The notes below the pieces were generated by a model that saw nothing but the letters and a program-made list of their open reading frames with translations, was not told the origin of the DNA and made no database searches. Of a stretch of 57,758 bases of DNA, positions 20,519 through 54,112 are shown one piece after another. Source of the DNA: Frankia alni (GTDB lineage Bacteria > Actinomycetota > Actinomycetes > Frankiales > Frankiaceae); NCBI GenBank assembly GCA_026225295.1, contig JAMFSN010000133.1, forward strand, positions 1 to 57,758, in the 5' to 3' direction. The position numbers and the translations under genes were made by a program. The number at the start of each line of letters is the position of its first letter. Position 1 is the stretch's first letter.

Positions 20519-21271
20519 TCAGGGGCGTCGGGGCCGACCCGGCCCCGGATTCGCGACCGGGCCGGCGGGCGGCGCGGGTTGACGGACCGGCCGGCCGGCG
20601 ACCGACCGGGCCTCCAACGTGTCGAGGACGTGGTCCCAGCGGGCCGTCGCGCCGACCGCCGGGCGCAGCAACCATCGGGATCGGGGCAGGTGGGGATGGG
20701 GTCTGGTCGGGGCGTGCCGCATGGAAGCGTCGGTCTTGCGCGCGAAACGTCGACCCTCCTCGAGCGACCAGGTCGCCTCGAGCCGACCGACCAGGGCTGT
20801 CTCGGTCTCCTCGTGCACCTCGAACAGCGCCTTGAGGCCGGCGTGCAGTTCGCCCATCGACTCCCCCGGCCGATGGACGTCCCCGCGCAGGTGCTGCTCC
20901 ATGGCCCGCATCACCGAGGCCATCTCGCGGGCTCCCCGTTCAAGGTCACGCACCTGATCCCGGGCCCCGGGCAGCGCCCGGCGGATCCGCGGGTACAACG
21001 CCAGCCGCATCGAGGAGAGGTGGGCGCTGATCGCCGCGACCAGCGCATCGAAGGCCCGGCCGCCGCGGCGCGGGTCGCTCACGTCGGCGCCCGGGTTCTC
21101 CAGCGCCCGGAACAGGTTGTGGACGTCGTCGTGGACGGCGGCGACCCGCTCACCGACGGGGGCGACCCGCTCGCCGACGGGGGCGGGTCGCGGCCCGCGC
21201 TCGCCGGTCGTCGGACCGGCCGGGCCGGGCCTGTCGCCGGCCAGCGGTGCTCCGTCCGTGGCTCGATCCAT
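20519..21271 (-). CDS. Hemerythrin-like (HHE) domain protein
   Basis: 250 aa from ATG 21271 (GGAGG upstream). A four-helix region at about 45-165 holds metal-ligand-like residues: VHDDVHNLFRAL, AISAHLSSMRLALYPRI, MRAMEQHLRGDVHR and LFEVHEETE. This resembles hemerythrin-type iron-binding domains used for oxygen, NO or redox sensing. The canonical HxxxE pairs are only partly kept (HLSSM where HExxE is usual), so metal binding is uncertain. The N-terminus repeats APVGERV twice through an 18-bp DNA duplication. It is divergent from the kinase gene with about 220 bases between. Confidence 0.6.
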   Translation of the reverse strand: MDRATDGAPLAGDRPGPAGPTTGERGPRPAPVGERVAPVGERVAAVHDDVHNLFRALENPGADVSDPRRGGRAFDALVAAISAHLSSMRLALYPRIRRALPGARDQVRDLERGAREMASVMRAMEQHLRGDVHRPGESMGELHAGLKALFEVHEETETALVGRLEATWSLEEGRRFARKTDASMRHAPTRPHPHLPRSRWLLRPAVGATARWDHVLDTLEARSVAGRPVRQPAPPAGPVANPGPGRPRRP

Positions 21272-21491: not shown

Positions 21492-24083
21492 ATGACGACG
21501 TCCCGGGGTGGGCCGGTGGACGGCGACACGCCGGTGCACGGGGTGGGGCGGACGACCGGCGCACCCCCGATGCCGGCCCGGGTCCTGCCGCTGCGGGCCG
21601 CCGACCCCCGTCGACTGGGTCCGTACCTGCTCCAGGGGCGCCTGGGCCAGGGCGGGATGGGCACCGTGTACCTCGGCCGGACCGGGAACGGGCCGTGGCT
21701 CGCGATCAAGGTGATCCGCGATGAATACGCGAGCGACGACGAGTTCCGCAACCGGTTCCGCCGCGAGGCCGAGAACGCCCGCCGGGTGGCACGCTTCTGC
21801 ACCGCCTCGGTCGTCGACGCCGATCCCGACGGCGACCCGCCCTACCTGGTCACCGAGTACGTCGAAGGTCCGACCCTCTCCCGGGCGGTCGCGACCAACG
21901 GCCCCCTGCGCTCGGCCGACCTCGAACAGCTGGCCGTCAACGTCGCGACCGCGCTGACCGCCATTCACAACGCCGGCATCGTCCACCGTGACCTGACGCC
22001 GGCCAACGTCCTGCTGTCGCCGGTCGGACCGAAGGTGATCGACTTCGGGGTCGCCCGCGCCACCGATCTGGTGACCGTCGCGCGCGAGGCGCAACGGATC
22101 GGCACCCCCGGGTTCATGGCCCCCGAGCAGGCGTCCGGGGCACCCGTGGGGGCCGCGGCGGACGTCTTCGCCTGGGGCGGGATCGTCATCTACGCCGGTA
22201 GCGGCCGACTTCCGTTCGGCGAAGGCGCCACCGACGCGGTGCTCTACCGGGTCATCCACGAACAGCCCCGGCTCGAAGGGCTCGACGGAACGTTGCGGAC
22301 GCTCGTCCAGCAGGCCATGCGCAAGGATCCGGCCACCCGGCCGACCGCCCAGGAGCTCCTGATGCGGTTGGTCGGCGAACCGATGGCGGCCACGGTGCTG
22401 GGCGTCCCCGCCCCGACCCCGCCGCCCACGCCGGGTGCCCCGGCGGCCGCCGCAACCTCGACGCCGCCGGCCGTCGGTTCGGCACCGCCGAAGGCGAACC
22501 GGACCAGCCGGGCCGAGCGGAAGGCCGCCCGGGCGGCGGCGGCCGGACCCGCGTCCACCCCGGCCCCCGTACCCCCGAGCCCGGCCCGGCCGAATCCCGT
22601 GCCCCCGAGCCCGGCCCGGCCGACGCCGGTCGCGGCCCGGCGGCCGGCCCCGACCGACCCCGCCGACCCGACCACCCGCATCGCCCGGTCGCCGGTTCCG
22701 GCCCCCCGGCCGGAGTCGGGCGCCCGATCCGTTCCACCGGTGGCGACCCGGCCCGGGGCCGACCGGTCCGACGAAGGCGAGGGCGGCCACCGCAAGCGGG
22801 GCGTCGTGCTGGCCGGCGTCCTGGCGCTGGTGCTCACCGGAGCCGCCGTGGGGATCGTCGTGACCCGCGGATCCAGTGGGGGCGGCAGCACCACCCCGCC
22901 CCCCGACCTGGTCGCGGTGTCGAGGCGGTTGGCCGCCGACGCCACCGCCGTCCGGGGGACCAACCCGGCGCTGGCCCGACGACTGAGCCTGGCGGCGTAC
23001 CGCGCGCACGACACCGCCGAGGCCGACCGGGCCCTGCTCGCGTCGATCCTCCCCGTCACGGGAACCACGGTGGCCATGCCGACCACCCGCACCTTGTCGG
23101 TCGCCCTGCGGCCCGACGGGGGGCTGCTGGCCAGCGCGGGCTCGGACCGCACCGTCCGGCTGACCACACTCAGCGCCTCCGGCCAGTCGGCGACCGCCGC
23201 GACGGTCGGCGGCTTCGGGGCGGCGGTGACCGCGGTGGCCTTCAGCTCCGACGGCCGGACCCTGGCCGCGGCCGACAAGGACACCACCCGGCTCATCGAC
23301 GTGTCCGACCTGAAGCACCCGCGGATCGTCGCCACCCTGATCGGTCACGTCTCACCGGTCGAGGCGGTCGCCTTCAGCCCGGACGGCACGATGGTGGCCA
23401 CCGGCTCCGACGACCGGACGGCCCGGCTGTGGAACATCCGCGACCGCGCCCACCCGGCCTTCATCGAGAGCCTGACCGGCCACTACGGACCGGTGACGGC
23501 GGTGGCGTTCGCCTCGACCCGACACCTGGCCGCGACGGCCGGTATCGACGGGCAGACCCGGATCTGGAACGTCACCAACCCCAAGTCACCGGTCGAGGTG
23601 TCGTCCGTGATGGGTGACTCCGGGGCGATCAACAGCGTGGCGTTCTCCCCGGGCGGCCAGTTGCTGGCCACCGGGGTCGACGACGGGACGACCCGGTTGC
23701 TCGACCTCACCGATCCGGCCAACCCGCGCCAGGTGGCCTCGGTGGCCGCCCACGATATGCGGGTCACCAGCGTCGCGTTCGCCGGCCGGTTGCTGCTGAC
23801 CGGCAGCCTGGACGGCACCGTCACCGTGCACGACACCGCCGACGAACAGGCTCCCGTGCTGGTCGCCACGCTGCCGGCCGTGCCGGGCAGCGTCGCGGCG
23901 GTCGCGGTCAGCGGCGACCGCTCGACCGTGGCTACCGGGGACGGCAACCGGACGGCGATCGTCCGGTCGCTGTCCCCGGCCCGGCTGGCCACCGCGGCCT
24001 GCGCCGATCCGGCCAACCGGCCCGACGCCGCGCTGTGGACCGACTACGCGCCCCAGGTCACCCACCCGCCCGCGGCCTGCTGA
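21492..24083 (+). CDS. Membrane Ser/Thr protein kinase with WD40 propeller
   Basis: 863 aa from ATG 21492. The kinase domain spans about 43-300: Gly loop GRLGQGGMGTVYLG, Lys73 in AIKVI, catalytic loop IVHRDLTPANVLL (Asp167, with Thr where Lys is usual), DFG at 184-186, and APEQ. A Pro/Ala-rich linker (about 300-430) contains two PNPVPPSPARP-type repeats. A single membrane helix lies near 436-458. Outside the membrane, residues about 530-835 contain at least six WD40-like blades such as VEAVAFSPDGTMVATGSDDRTARLWN. The propeller probably senses an external ligand or protein and the kinase signals inside. It is convergent with the Hsp70-PBP fusion gene. Confidence 0.9.
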   Translation: MTTSRGGPVDGDTPVHGVGRTTGAPPMPARVLPLRAADPRRLGPYLLQGRLGQGGMGTVYLGRTGNGPWLAIKVIRDEYASDDEFRNRFRREAENARRVARFCTASVVDADPDGDPPYLVTEYVEGPTLSRAVATNGPLRSADLEQLAVNVATALTAIHNAGIVHRDLTPANVLLSPVGPKVIDFGVARATDLVTVAREAQRIGTPGFMAPEQASGAPVGAAADVFAWGGIVIYAGSGRLPFGEGATDAVLYRVIHEQPRLEGLDGTLRTLVQQAMRKDPATRPTAQELLMRLVGEPMAATVLGVPAPTPPPTPGAPAAAATSTPPAVGSAPPKANRTSRAERKAARAAAAGPASTPAPVPPSPARPNPVPPSPARPTPVAARRPAPTDPADPTTRIARSPVPAPRPESGARSVPPVATRPGADRSDEGEGGHRKRGVVLAGVLALVLTGAAVGIVVTRGSSGGGSTTPPPDLVAVSRRLAADATAVRGTNPALARRLSLAAYRAHDTAEADRALLASILPVTGTTVAMPTTRTLSVALRPDGGLLASAGSDRTVRLTTLSASGQSATAATVGGFGAAVTAVAFSSDGRTLAAADKDTTRLIDVSDLKHPRIVATLIGHVSPVEAVAFSPDGTMVATGSDDRTARLWNIRDRAHPAFIESLTGHYGPVTAVAFASTRHLAATAGIDGQTRIWNVTNPKSPVEVSSVMGDSGAINSVAFSPGGQLLATGVDDGTTRLLDLTDPANPRQVASVAAHDMRVTSVAFAGRLLLTGSLDGTVTVHDTADEQAPVLVATLPAVPGSVAAVAVSGDRSTVATGDGNRTAIVRSLSPARLATAACADPANRPDAALWTDYAPQVTHPPAAC

Positions 24084-24202: not shown

Positions 24203-26716
24203 TCAGCTCTGGGCGACTGGTTTGACGCCCTTGGTCAGTTCCTTGATCTTCCCGGTCGCATCGGCGATCTCGGCGTCGTCGCGGGGGACGTAGTGCGCGT
24301 CCTCGGCGATGGTCTCCCCGTTCGCCAGGTAGAAGTTCAGGAAGGCGGCGACCGCCGGCTTCTTCAGCGAGGCCCGGTTGACGTAGATGAACAGCGGCTT
24401 GCACAGCGGCAGGTACTTGCCGTTCTGCGCGGCCGTCAGCGTCGGGTAGACGCAGCCGGAGCCGCTGTTGATCTCGACCCCGCGCAGCCGGTCGGTGTTG
24501 GCCGCGAGCGACGGGAAGTCCAGGTAGCCGACCGCGCCCTTGGCCGACGCGACCCCCCGGGCGGTCGCCGCTCCGTCACCGTGGCCCGCGTAGTCGTTGC
24601 GACCGCCGTCGCGGCTGCCGTTCACCGAGGCGTTGAAGAACGCGTACGGCACGGACGACTGGTCCGGGCCGTACACCGACAGGGGGACGTCCGGGAAGGA
24701 CGGGTCGACCTGGTTCCAGCTCGTCGCCGGTGACTCGTTGCCGAAGATCTTGTGCAGCTGACCGAGGGTCAGGCACTTGGCCCAGGTGTTGGAGGTGTCC
24801 ACGACGACCGGCAGCGTCTCGTGGGCGACCTCGAAGCCGACCACCTGCTGCTCACCGCAGCCCGGGGTGGGGTCCAGAGCGTAGGACGCCCCGCTGAGGT
24901 CGACCTGTCCCTTGCACAGCCGCGCGTAGCCGTCATCGGTGTTGACCGCGTCGACCGACACCGAGACGTCGTCGGACTTCTGCCGGTAGAGGGCGTAGGC
25001 GGTCTCCGTGATCGGCGCGACCTCGACGGACCCGCCGGCCAGCACCCGGTTGGCCACCGGCACCGCGCTCGGCGCCGCCGTGGTGGCGCTGGGCGTCGGG
25101 GTGGCGGCCGCCGCGGCCGGCAACGCCTCGGCCGCTTCGATCTGCCGCTGGTCGGCGGCCTCTTTAGCCGACTGGAGGGTCTGGCCGGTGCTGGCCCCGC
25201 CGCCACCCCCGCCACCCGAGGACGGCAGAAGGATCCCGAGGACGACGGCCGGAATCAGCACCGCGGCCGCGGCGACCGGCACCCACGGCCGGCGCCGGAC
25301 GAACCCGCCCACGCCGCCGCCGGCCCGGTGGGACCGGTTGCCACCGCCACCGCCCGCGCCGCCCGCGCTGGCGCCGACCGCGGCCGGGACGGGGTTGTAC
25401 TCGGTGTCGGGGTCCAGGTCGGCCTTGGAGCCGACGCCGGCCCCCAGCGCCGTGGCGTCCTCGAACGCCGCCACATCGGAGGATCCGCCGACGGCCCCCG
25501 GCACCGGCGTGACCGGCGGGTAGGAGCGCATCCCGGGCTGGGACAGGTGCGGGTCGGACGGCGGCAGCGACGTCGCGAGCGGCGCCCCGATCACGACCGT
25601 CTGCATCGGAACGACGTCGTCGGCGTCCACCCCGAGCGCCGGGAAACCGGCCGCCAGCAACGCCGCGCCCAGCGCGATCTCCTCGGGCGGGCGGAGATCG
25701 AACGACACGTTCGGACCGAGTTCCTCGGCGAGCAGCTGCTGGACGAGGGGGATGCGCGCGCACCCGCCGTGCAGCAGCACGCCGTCCAGCTCGGACGCCT
25801 CGACCGGGACCGAGCGCAGCGCCCGCCGCAGCCCCTTCACCGTCGCGACCAGGGCCGGGCGGATGATGCGCTCGAACTGCTCGCGGGTCACCGTGACGAC
25901 CTGCTCGCTGCCGCCGCCGGTGTCGACCGAGACCTCGGTCTCGCTGTCCTCGCTGAGCAGTTCCTTGGCCTCGGCGCATTCGGCCCGCAACCGGGACCGC
26001 CAGGCCAGCCGGCCCGGGTCGGTGATCCCGGTCGCCGACCCGGTTCCGTCCGGAACGCCGGCCGCCGCCAGGACGTGCGCGAGCAGCGCCTCGTCCAGGT
26101 CGAACCCGCCGAACTGCTCCATCCCGGTGGCCGTGCCGAGCAGCGTCGGGCCGCGCCCGCCGACCACCGCCGCGTCGAACGACCCCGCGCCCAGGTCGTA
26201 GACGGCCACCAGATCCTCGGCCGACGCGCCGGTCCGGTGGGCGTGCTGGGCCGCGACCGCGACCGGCGCCGATATCACCTCGAGGTCCGGCGCACCGTCG
26301 AAGTCGGCCTGGCGCAACGCGCCGAGCAGCAGGTCCGCCTTGTAAGGCGACCAGCACGCCGGATAGGTGAGGGTGACGGCCTCGGGCGGCCCACCGAACC
26401 GGCGGGCCGCGGTCTCGGCCACCAGCCCGAGCAGATGGGCGATCAGCGCCTGAGGCGGGTAGGGCACGCCCGCGATCAGCAGCGGCGTCGGGTCACCGAG
26501 CCGCCGGACGAAATCCCGCGCGGCCCGGGCCGGCTCGGCCAGCGACCGGCGCTGCGCCGCGCGGCCCGCGAGGAACTCGCCGTCCGGGCGGACGAACAGC
26601 ACGGCCGGCATCCGCGCGTCCTGACCGCCGAGCGGCAGGACCTCCAGCCGTCCGTCCCGCATGACCGCCGCCGACACATAGGCCGATCCGACATCGATAC
26701 CCAGCCGATACACCAC
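24203..26716 (-). CDS. Hsp70-type ATPase / PstS-like binding domain membrane fusion
   Basis: About 837 aa from the GTG at 26716 (a second GTG follows at once). Residues 1-370 are an actin/Hsp70 nucleotide-binding domain: YRLGIDVGSAYVSAAV (phosphate 1), VYDLGAGSFDAAVV (phosphate 2), ISAPVAVAAQHA (connect 1) and GVLLHGGCARIPLVQQLL (adenosine loop). The Hsp70 peptide-binding domain is missing. After a Gly/Pro-rich linker, one membrane helix (about 476-497, VPVAAAAVLIPAVVLGILL) leads to an extracytoplasmic PstS-type periplasmic-binding domain (about 555-830; AGGSVEVAPITETAYALY, KGQVDLSGASYALD, LHKIFGNES, NFYLANGETIAED). The Thr usually after DLG in phosphate 1 is replaced, so ATPase rate is uncertain. 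Predicted role: coupling an external anion or ligand signal to a cytoplasmic ATPase. No pst genes are nearby. Confidence 0.85.
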   Translation of the reverse strand: MVYRLGIDVGSAYVSAAVMRDGRLEVLPLGGQDARMPAVLFVRPDGEFLAGRAAQRRSLAEPARAARDFVRRLGDPTPLLIAGVPYPPQALIAHLLGLVAETAARRFGGPPEAVTLTYPACWSPYKADLLLGALRQADFDGAPDLEVISAPVAVAAQHAHRTGASAEDLVAVYDLGAGSFDAAVVGGRGPTLLGTATGMEQFGGFDLDEALLAHVLAAAGVPDGTGSATGITDPGRLAWRSRLRAECAEAKELLSEDSETEVSVDTGGGSEQVVTVTREQFERIIRPALVATVKGLRRALRSVPVEASELDGVLLHGGCARIPLVQQLLAEELGPNVSFDLRPPEEIALGAALLAAGFPALGVDADDVVPMQTVVIGAPLATSLPPSDPHLSQPGMRSYPPVTPVPGAVGGSSDVAAFEDATALGAGVGSKADLDPDTEYNPVPAAVGASAGGAGGGGGNRSHRAGGGVGGFVRRRPWVPVAAAAVLIPAVVLGILLPSSGGGGGGGASTGQTLQSAKEAADQRQIEAAEALPAAAAATPTPSATTAAPSAVPVANRVLAGGSVEVAPITETAYALYRQKSDDVSVSVDAVNTDDGYARLCKGQVDLSGASYALDPTPGCGEQQVVGFEVAHETLPVVVDTSNTWAKCLTLGQLHKIFGNESPATSWNQVDPSFPDVPLSVYGPDQSSVPYAFFNASVNGSRDGGRNDYAGHGDGAATARGVASAKGAVGYLDFPSLAANTDRLRGVEINSGSGCVYPTLTAAQNGKYLPLCKPLFIYVNRASLKKPAVAAFLNFYLANGETIAEDAHYVPRDDAEIADATGKIKELTKGVKPVAQS

Positions 26717-53023: not shown

Positions 53024-54112
53024 CTAGTGTCCTGAGTCGTTGATTCGCTGGCAGTAGGCGGCGAGGGTCTCAAGGATGTCGTCGGCGGTCTTGGTCCAGA
53101 CGAACGGTTTGGGTTCCTTGTTCCAGGCGTTGATCCACATGCGGATGTCCTTCTCCAGCGCGACGACGGACCGGTGGGCCGAGCGGCGCAGTTTGCGGTT
53201 GGTCAGTTCGGCGAACCAGCGCTCGACCAGGTTCATCCAGGACGCGGACGTCGGGGTGAAGTGCAGGTGGAACCGGGGATGGCGCAGCAACCAGTTCTTG
53301 ATCGCCGGGGTCTTGTGGGTGGCGTAGTTATCCAGGACCAGGTGCAGGTCGTAGCCGGCGGGAACCGACGCGTCGATCAGTTTCAGGAACCGCAGGAACT
53401 CCTGGTGGCGGTGCCGCCGGTAGTGCTGGGCGATCACCGACCCGGACGTCGGGTCCAACGCGGCGAACAGGCTGGTGGTGCCGTGGCGGACGTAGTCGTG
53501 CGTCATCCGCTCGGGCGTGCCGGGCATCATCGGCAGCACCGGAGCGGTCCGGTCCAACGCCTGGATCTGCGACTTCTCATCGACGCAGAGAACGATCGCC
53601 TTCTCCGGCGGGTCGAGGTAGACCCCGACCACGTCACGAACCTTGTCCACGAACAACGGATCCGTAGACAGCTTCCACGTCTCGGCCAGATGCGGCTTGA
53701 GCCCGAACGCCCGCCACATCCGCGACACCGTCGACTGCGACAACCCCGACGCCTTCGCCATCGACCGGGTCGACCAGTGCGTGTCACCGTTCGGCGGCGT
53801 GGTCTCCAACGTGCGTGCGATCACCGCCTCGACCTGGGCATCGGTGACTGTGCGCGGCCGACCCGGCCGCGGCTCGTCCGACAGCCCGTCCAGCCGATCA
53901 GCCGCGAACCGGTTCCGCCACTTCGCGACCATGTCCCGACTGACACCCAGCTCCAACGCGACCTGCGCGTTCGTGCCGCCTTTCGCGCAGGCCAACACGA
54001 TCCGCGACCGCTGCGCGAGCGCCTGCGCCGCCTTCCGGCGCCGCGCCCACCCCCTCAACACCTCGCGTTCGGAAGGAGACAACTCGATCGACACCCCGCG
54101 TGGACCAGGCAC
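53024..54112 (-). CDS. IS630-family transposase
   Basis: 362 aa, full length. An N-terminal helix-turn-helix (GGTNAQVALELGVSRDMVAKWRNRF) and a second one (KASGLSQSTVSRMWRAFGL) bind the ends. The DDE catalytic domain has Asp in VLCVDEKSQIQALDR, Asp in LVLDNYATHKTP and Glu in SWMNLVERWFAELTN. The frame is intact, so the element may be active. The stop overlaps the left inverted repeat. Confidence 0.95.
   Translation of the reverse strand: MPGPRGVSIELSPSEREVLRGWARRRKAAQALAQRSRIVLACAKGGTNAQVALELGVSRDMVAKWRNRFAADRLDGLSDEPRPGRPRTVTDAQVEAVIARTLETTPPNGDTHWSTRSMAKASGLSQSTVSRMWRAFGLKPHLAETWKLSTDPLFVDKVRDVVGVYLDPPEKAIVLCVDEKSQIQALDRTAPVLPMMPGTPERMTHDYVRHGTTSLFAALDPTSGSVIAQHYRRHRHQEFLRFLKLIDASVPAGYDLHLVLDNYATHKTPAIKNWLLRHPRFHLHFTPTSASWMNLVERWFAELTNRKLRRSAHRSVVALEKDIRMWINAWNKEPKPFVWTKTADDILETLAAYCQRINDSGH

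Follow-up and report, generated by a model that had tools for sequence, protein, structure and literature searches.

A Frankiaceae membrane protein joining an Hsp70-type domain without its hydrolysis residues to a remodelled PstS-fold ectodomain, encoded beside a WD40 kinase gene

Hsp70 domains are familiar as the motors of chaperones. From computational analysis we describe a gene of Frankia alni whose product joins an Hsp70-type nucleotide-binding domain (NBD), through a disordered linker and one membrane helix, to a periplasmic-binding-protein (PBP) domain of the PstS fold. The fusion is real, conserved and unusual. It lies in a window of 57,758 nucleotides, the whole stretch of DNA analysed (GenBank assembly GCA_026225295.1, contig JAMFSN010000133.1, positions 1 to 57,758), next to a convergent gene for a WD40 membrane kinase. 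The best explanation, to which we give an even chance, is that the fusion is a pseudo-ATPase, PstS-derived single-pass membrane receptor or adaptor of Frankiaceae working with this kinase. The features of the two genes are listed below, with residue numbers of the window's protein and with Hsp70 catalytic positions in DnaK numbering.

24203..26716, minus strand: fusion gene, 837 amino acids plus stop, GTG start; Hsp70-type NBD, linker, membrane helix, PstS-fold domain
25649..26716, minus strand: Hsp70-type NBD, residues 1-356, predicted cytoplasmic; hydrolysis residues lost (K70Q, E171A, T199S)
25286..25648, minus strand: linker, residues 357-477, Gly/Pro/Ala-rich, disordered (pLDDT <50), fast-evolving, predicted cytoplasmic
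25598..25600, minus strand: codon of Thr373 in the linker motif QTVVIG, invariant in fusions, candidate phosphosite
25226..25282, minus strand: membrane helix, residues 479-497, hydropathy 2.66, RRR just before it
25055..25225, minus strand: low-complexity spacer, residues 498-554, predicted extracytoplasmic
24206..25054, minus strand: PstS-fold domain, residues 555-837, predicted extracytoplasmic; phosphate contacts replaced; invariant E565, H632, V689, C772, K773
21570..24083, plus strand: Ser/Thr kinase, Pro-rich linker, membrane helix, WD40 ectodomain, convergent with the fusion; start codon uncertain, open reading frame opens at 21117
21597..22376, plus strand: kinase domain, HRDLTPAN and DFG motifs intact
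22803..22859, plus strand: kinase membrane helix
23085..23942, plus strand: WD40 repeats, predicted outside the cell (Pfam WD40 4e-43, 6 repeats)

Sequence families, PDB searches and AlphaFold/Foldseek agreed on both folds of the fusion. Pfam assigned HSP70 (E=6e-32) and PBP_like_2 (E=5e-18). The HSP70 match stops at profile position 373 of 599, and neither an Hsp70 peptide-binding domain (SBD) nor the hydrophobic interdomain linker was found, as judged from the Pfam extent and the disorder of the linker in the AlphaFold model. A PDB search by sequence returned DnaK 2v7y for residues 5-369 (E=6e-29) and, as the closest entry for residues 531-811, 4jwo (E=3e-47). In the full-length AlphaFold model, built with 21 sequences, pLDDT lay mostly at 80-94 for residues 1-356 and at 75-94 for residues 551-837, with a low-confidence loop region at about 687-713; the linker and membrane helix stayed below 50. 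Foldseek matched the Hsp70-type domain to DnaK/Hsp70 NBDs with E down to 1.6e-26, and the PBP domain modelled alone (pLDDT 84.8) to 4jwo (best, 1.4e-29) and many PstS proteins. There is a single strong hydrophobic helix in the window's protein, and every fusion has one helix at the same place. As RRR precedes this helix, the positive-inside rule would put the NBD inside the cell and the PBP domain outside (N-in/C-out). The start codon agrees with the conserved N terminus MGYQLGID of the relatives. A sequence-only reading of this DNA had proposed a gene at 24203..26716 with an SBD-less Hsp70-type NBD, one membrane helix and a PstS-type ectodomain, and had called for structure prediction with structural search and for a survey of the architecture; on all these points of gene, helix and fold the present results agree with it.

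Full-length homologues rule out an assembly error joining two genes, a risk the same reading had raised. The survey gave fusion-type matches in 30 of the 35 genomes of the order, here the single family Frankiaceae, and named records with the fusion include Frankia, Parafrankia, Pseudofrankia and Candidatus Frankia. The family includes nitrogen-fixing plant symbionts. A few of the 30 genomes have a fusion gene broken by a contig end or interrupted by a stop, and completeness in the five genomes lacking a match is 63-94%. Two family-specific peptide patterns scanned over 84,980 species, which would miss distant variants, placed the relatives in Frankiaceae only, and in a 40-genome class sample searched by PBP alignment (E<=1e-20) the matches outside the family were no fusions, only stand-alone proteins of 336-378 amino acids. 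The fusion was found nowhere outside Frankiaceae, in a sampling that is thin beyond the family. A viral origin was rejected, as a scan of viral contigs returned no relative, and so was a plasmid-borne fusion, as none of the 258 matching plasmid records spanned 80% of the query in a single stretch.

The fusions form one clade in the NBD tree (99) and in the PBP tree (100), with the same main subgroups in both, and this is most simply explained by a single fusion event, after which the two domains would have passed down together. Both trees, which are quick ones, place the window's protein deepest as drawn, on a long terminal branch. Omega was 0.09-0.30 for the NBD, 0.08-0.23 for the PBP domain and 0.22-0.50 for the linker; both domains are under purifying selection.

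We examined the catalytic residues of the Hsp70-type domain in 31 fusions. K70, E171 and T12 are retained in 0/31 and T199 in 2/31; position T199 is F, W or H in 21/31, and T11/T12 are replaced. Since a K70A or T199A change alone blocks ATP hydrolysis by DnaK, but not ATP binding (PMC5561102; PMC9691929), hydrolysis by the fusion NBD appears very unlikely. Nucleotide binding by some members may persist, because D8 and D194 survive in 27/31. G196, G341 and P143 are present in 31/31. Most fusions retain the GG-x-x-R loop together with D8, D194, G196 and G341, and in the window's member the majority of the contacts survive; one paralogue group lacks D8 and D194. The residues were lost stepwise, since the membrane relatives without a PBP domain lack K70 (11/11) yet keep E171 and T199 (11/11, as also D8, T11, D194 and D201).

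The ectodomain was checked for the PstS phosphate motifs GSST, GTGGG, ASR and SGT. In all 31 fusions Thr is replaced by Glu (E565, where five of the six stand-alone proteins have Thr), Gly-Thr by Val and Gln, His or Pro (V689, Q/H/P690), Arg by Phe or Tyr (F/Y612), and Asn by His (H632). S563, T593, S611 and R706 remain, and C772 and K773 are invariant residues new to the fusions. The motifs are retained in 5/5 close stand-alone relatives, of which three (L074, L075 and L077) have two downstream gene clusters in common, resembling a pst operon. The source genome's own PstS, the sixth of the stand-alone proteins, is more distant and keeps SGT. It adjoins a permease gene, and the fusion as the genome's own PstS was rejected on this ground. 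Against TIGR02136 the fusion scored 157.6 bits, below the curated cut-off of 206.6. From these replacements the ectodomain has probably lost phosphate binding. The invariant new residues E565, H632, V689, C772 and K773 suggest retooling, not decay.

The WD40 kinase gene lies less than 3 kb (51-2790 bp) from 27 of the 31 fusions and is directly adjacent, with no gene between, in 22 (51-492 bp), which upholds the earlier proposal of a convergent WD40 membrane kinase and makes the signalling locus suggested there likely. Because the pairing is kept in 17 convergent and 10 same-strand arrangements, the pair outlives rearrangement. Two of the four remaining fusions are second paralogues whose genomes hold a kinase-linked copy. 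For the other two (G008, G013) a full-length match to the WD40 part of the kinase, the query in our genome searches, is on another contig. The five Frankiaceae genomes without the fusion also gave no full-length match to this part, a co-absence that is soft at 63-94% completeness. In L047:5566-10960 and L050:2692-8710 the two genes share a strand at a spacing of 125-164 bp and occur in either order; these may be operons. L050, L053 and L056 have a second fusion-family protein on the kinase's other side, and in L056 one of the flanking proteins was called as the PBP part only (L056:10422-11519); an NBD match lies immediately upstream of it, and a gap in gene calling or in the sequence is the probable cause.

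Other genes recur at these loci. In L050, L053, L055, L057, L058, L060 and L067 genes recognised by eye in the sequence as methylmalonyl-CoA mutase subunits and MeaB adjoin the fusion, and a CNNM/CorC-like pair, identified likewise, stands on the kinase's other side; near the window's copy the methylmalonyl-CoA mutase/MeaB and CNNM genes are absent. As the relatives' locus also touches these genes, adjacency alone proves little, and we infer the partnership of fusion and kinase. Elsewhere in the window, an open reading frame at 53024-54112 (minus strand) resembles by eye an IS630-type transposase and is a candidate for one.

All 31 linkers carry Thr373 a short way past the Hsp70 domain, within a T-x-hydrophobic-hydrophobic motif. 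We counted 40 such motifs in the linkers against 5.7 expected in shuffles, a number to be read as one conserved site and not as 31 independent ones, the linkers being related. The motif resembles a Ser/Thr-kinase site, and phosphorylation of Thr373 is speculative. A similar motif (MAATVLG) comes after the window's kinase domain, and some other kinases have one too; it is absent from others, so a phosphosite common to kinase and fusion was set aside as a lead only.

The NBD is not confined to this architecture. NBD-only relatives group with the fusions, apart from cytosolic Hsp70 (NBD tree, 100); their linker is rich in Pro and Ala, and as a rule they have a single helix. The ectodomains of relatives are a ricin-type lectin (L078:6881-9175, L080:9230-11497), a Vgb/YncE-type propeller (L069:10433-12892) or unassigned; with the same NBD and membrane helix, the sensors look interchangeable. 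Some relatives are encoded beside two dynamin-like GTPases: Dynamin_N was found in L070, whose gene clusters recur in L072 and L069. These neighbourhoods (L069:7688-12892, L070:5446-11769, L072:6027-13612), from other actinobacterial families, may be a conserved membrane module.

In the explanation we prefer, the PstS-fold domain outside, without its phosphate site, would bind a ligand or partner through a new conserved pocket or surface, and the Hsp70-fold domain inside would be a binding module that may hold nucleotide in some members and should not hydrolyse it. Either both ectodomains would sense together and the pseudo-Hsp70 would control kinase activity or location, or the invariant Thr373, next to the NBD, would be the site at which the kinase phosphorylates the fusion; the direction of signalling is speculative. 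A nucleotide-gated receptor, in which the NBD binds ATP/ADP without hydrolysis, ectodomain occupancy sets an open or closed state and exchange acts as a clock, would fit the contacts kept in most fusions, the window's among them, and the ATP binding of DnaK K70A and T199A (PMC5561102). We consider it unlikely in view of the replaced T11/T12 and T199 (the last being F, W or H in most fusions), the paralogue group without D8 and D194, and a long disordered linker that makes a poor lever for direct coupling. The fusion could also be a cell-envelope scaffold whose domains bind no small ligand and act as protein-interaction platforms placing the kinase or other envelope proteins. Altered active sites in folds under purifying selection, and ectodomains swapped for lectin or propeller domains in relatives, speak for this; we hold it improbable, as the new polar invariant residues E565, H632 and K773, which occupy or adjoin former ligand positions, resemble a new site and not an abandoned one.

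Two further readings have very little probability in our judgement. The sequence-only reading had suggested a ligand-sensing ATPase with a phosphate or anion receptor. Both folds are real, as it requires, but K70 and E171 are absent in 31/31 and T199 in 29/31, with all three changed in the window's own protein, the PstS motifs are replaced in every fusion, and a separate PstS, next to a permease gene, is encoded in the genome; neither the ATPase nor the receptor part of that suggestion is supported. A membrane chaperone or membrane-remodelling factor would be an analogy with the NBD-only relatives next to Dynamin_N proteins, and is likewise hard to credit: no gene of the dynamin clusters stands beside any fusion locus, an SBD is missing, and even the dynamin-linked relatives have lost K70.

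If the preferred explanation holds, an Hsp70 domain has been turned into the inside half of a transmembrane receptor, its motor residues lost in the Frankiaceae branch, and a nutrient-binding protein has become its external half and carries a new conserved site. Because the kinase pair is widely kept in Frankiaceae, this would be a testable, uncharacterised envelope-sensing system with a rare bacterial pseudo-Hsp70. More tentatively, and with somewhat greater doubt than belief, we propose an unrecognised actinobacterial class of transmembrane receptors, in which an Hsp70-type NBD without the catalytic lysine is combined with interchangeable PstS-fold, ricin-type lectin or beta-propeller ectodomains, and of which one Frankiaceae branch would be a full pseudo-ATPase in a dedicated two-receptor signalling pair with the WD40 kinase. 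Our literature search, which had little reach into subscription journals, found no paper describing an Hsp70-PstS fusion and no description of the modular membrane family.

Compared with known systems, the fusion shares fold and sequence with the DnaK/Hsp70 NBD and differs by the missing SBD, the loss of K70, E171 and T199, the membrane anchor and the attached ectodomain. Hspa13/STCH (PMC9691929) is likewise an Hsp70 NBD without an SBD; unlike the fusion it is eukaryotic, resides in the ER, keeps the catalytic K and T and has no receptor domain. With PstS (TIGR02136, PDB 4jwo) the fusion has its ectodomain fold in common, at about 30-39% identity to the closest members, whereas its phosphate contacts are replaced, the domain is tethered at the C terminus, no PstCAB stands beside it and its score is below the TIGR02136 cut-off. 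By the tests applied it is a member of neither the DnaK chaperones nor PstS, though derived from both folds. The partner has the kinase, membrane-helix and propeller layout of AfsK-like WD40 Ser/Thr kinases, with AfsK as its best NCBIfam match, but is not AfsK itself (NF053615 equivalog, 223.4 bits against a cut-off of 1300). The GTPase-centric conflict systems of Actinobacteria (PMC7159879) have, as the fusion does, an HSP70 domain without the peptide-binding domain; membership was rejected, since no GAP1-N2 or DO-GTPase, tubulin, GrpE or effector was recognised in these loci, judging from sequence, and MeaB is the sole neighbouring GTPase recognised in the fusion loci. The actinobacterial membrane Hsp70-domain proteins (L069-L073, L078-L080) have the same order of NBD, Pro/Ala-rich linker, membrane helix and ectodomain, and share with the fusion the missing K70 and a Trp where DnaK has F146. 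They differ in their lectin, propeller or unassigned ectodomains and in keeping E171 and T199, and the fusion is one branch of this modular family.
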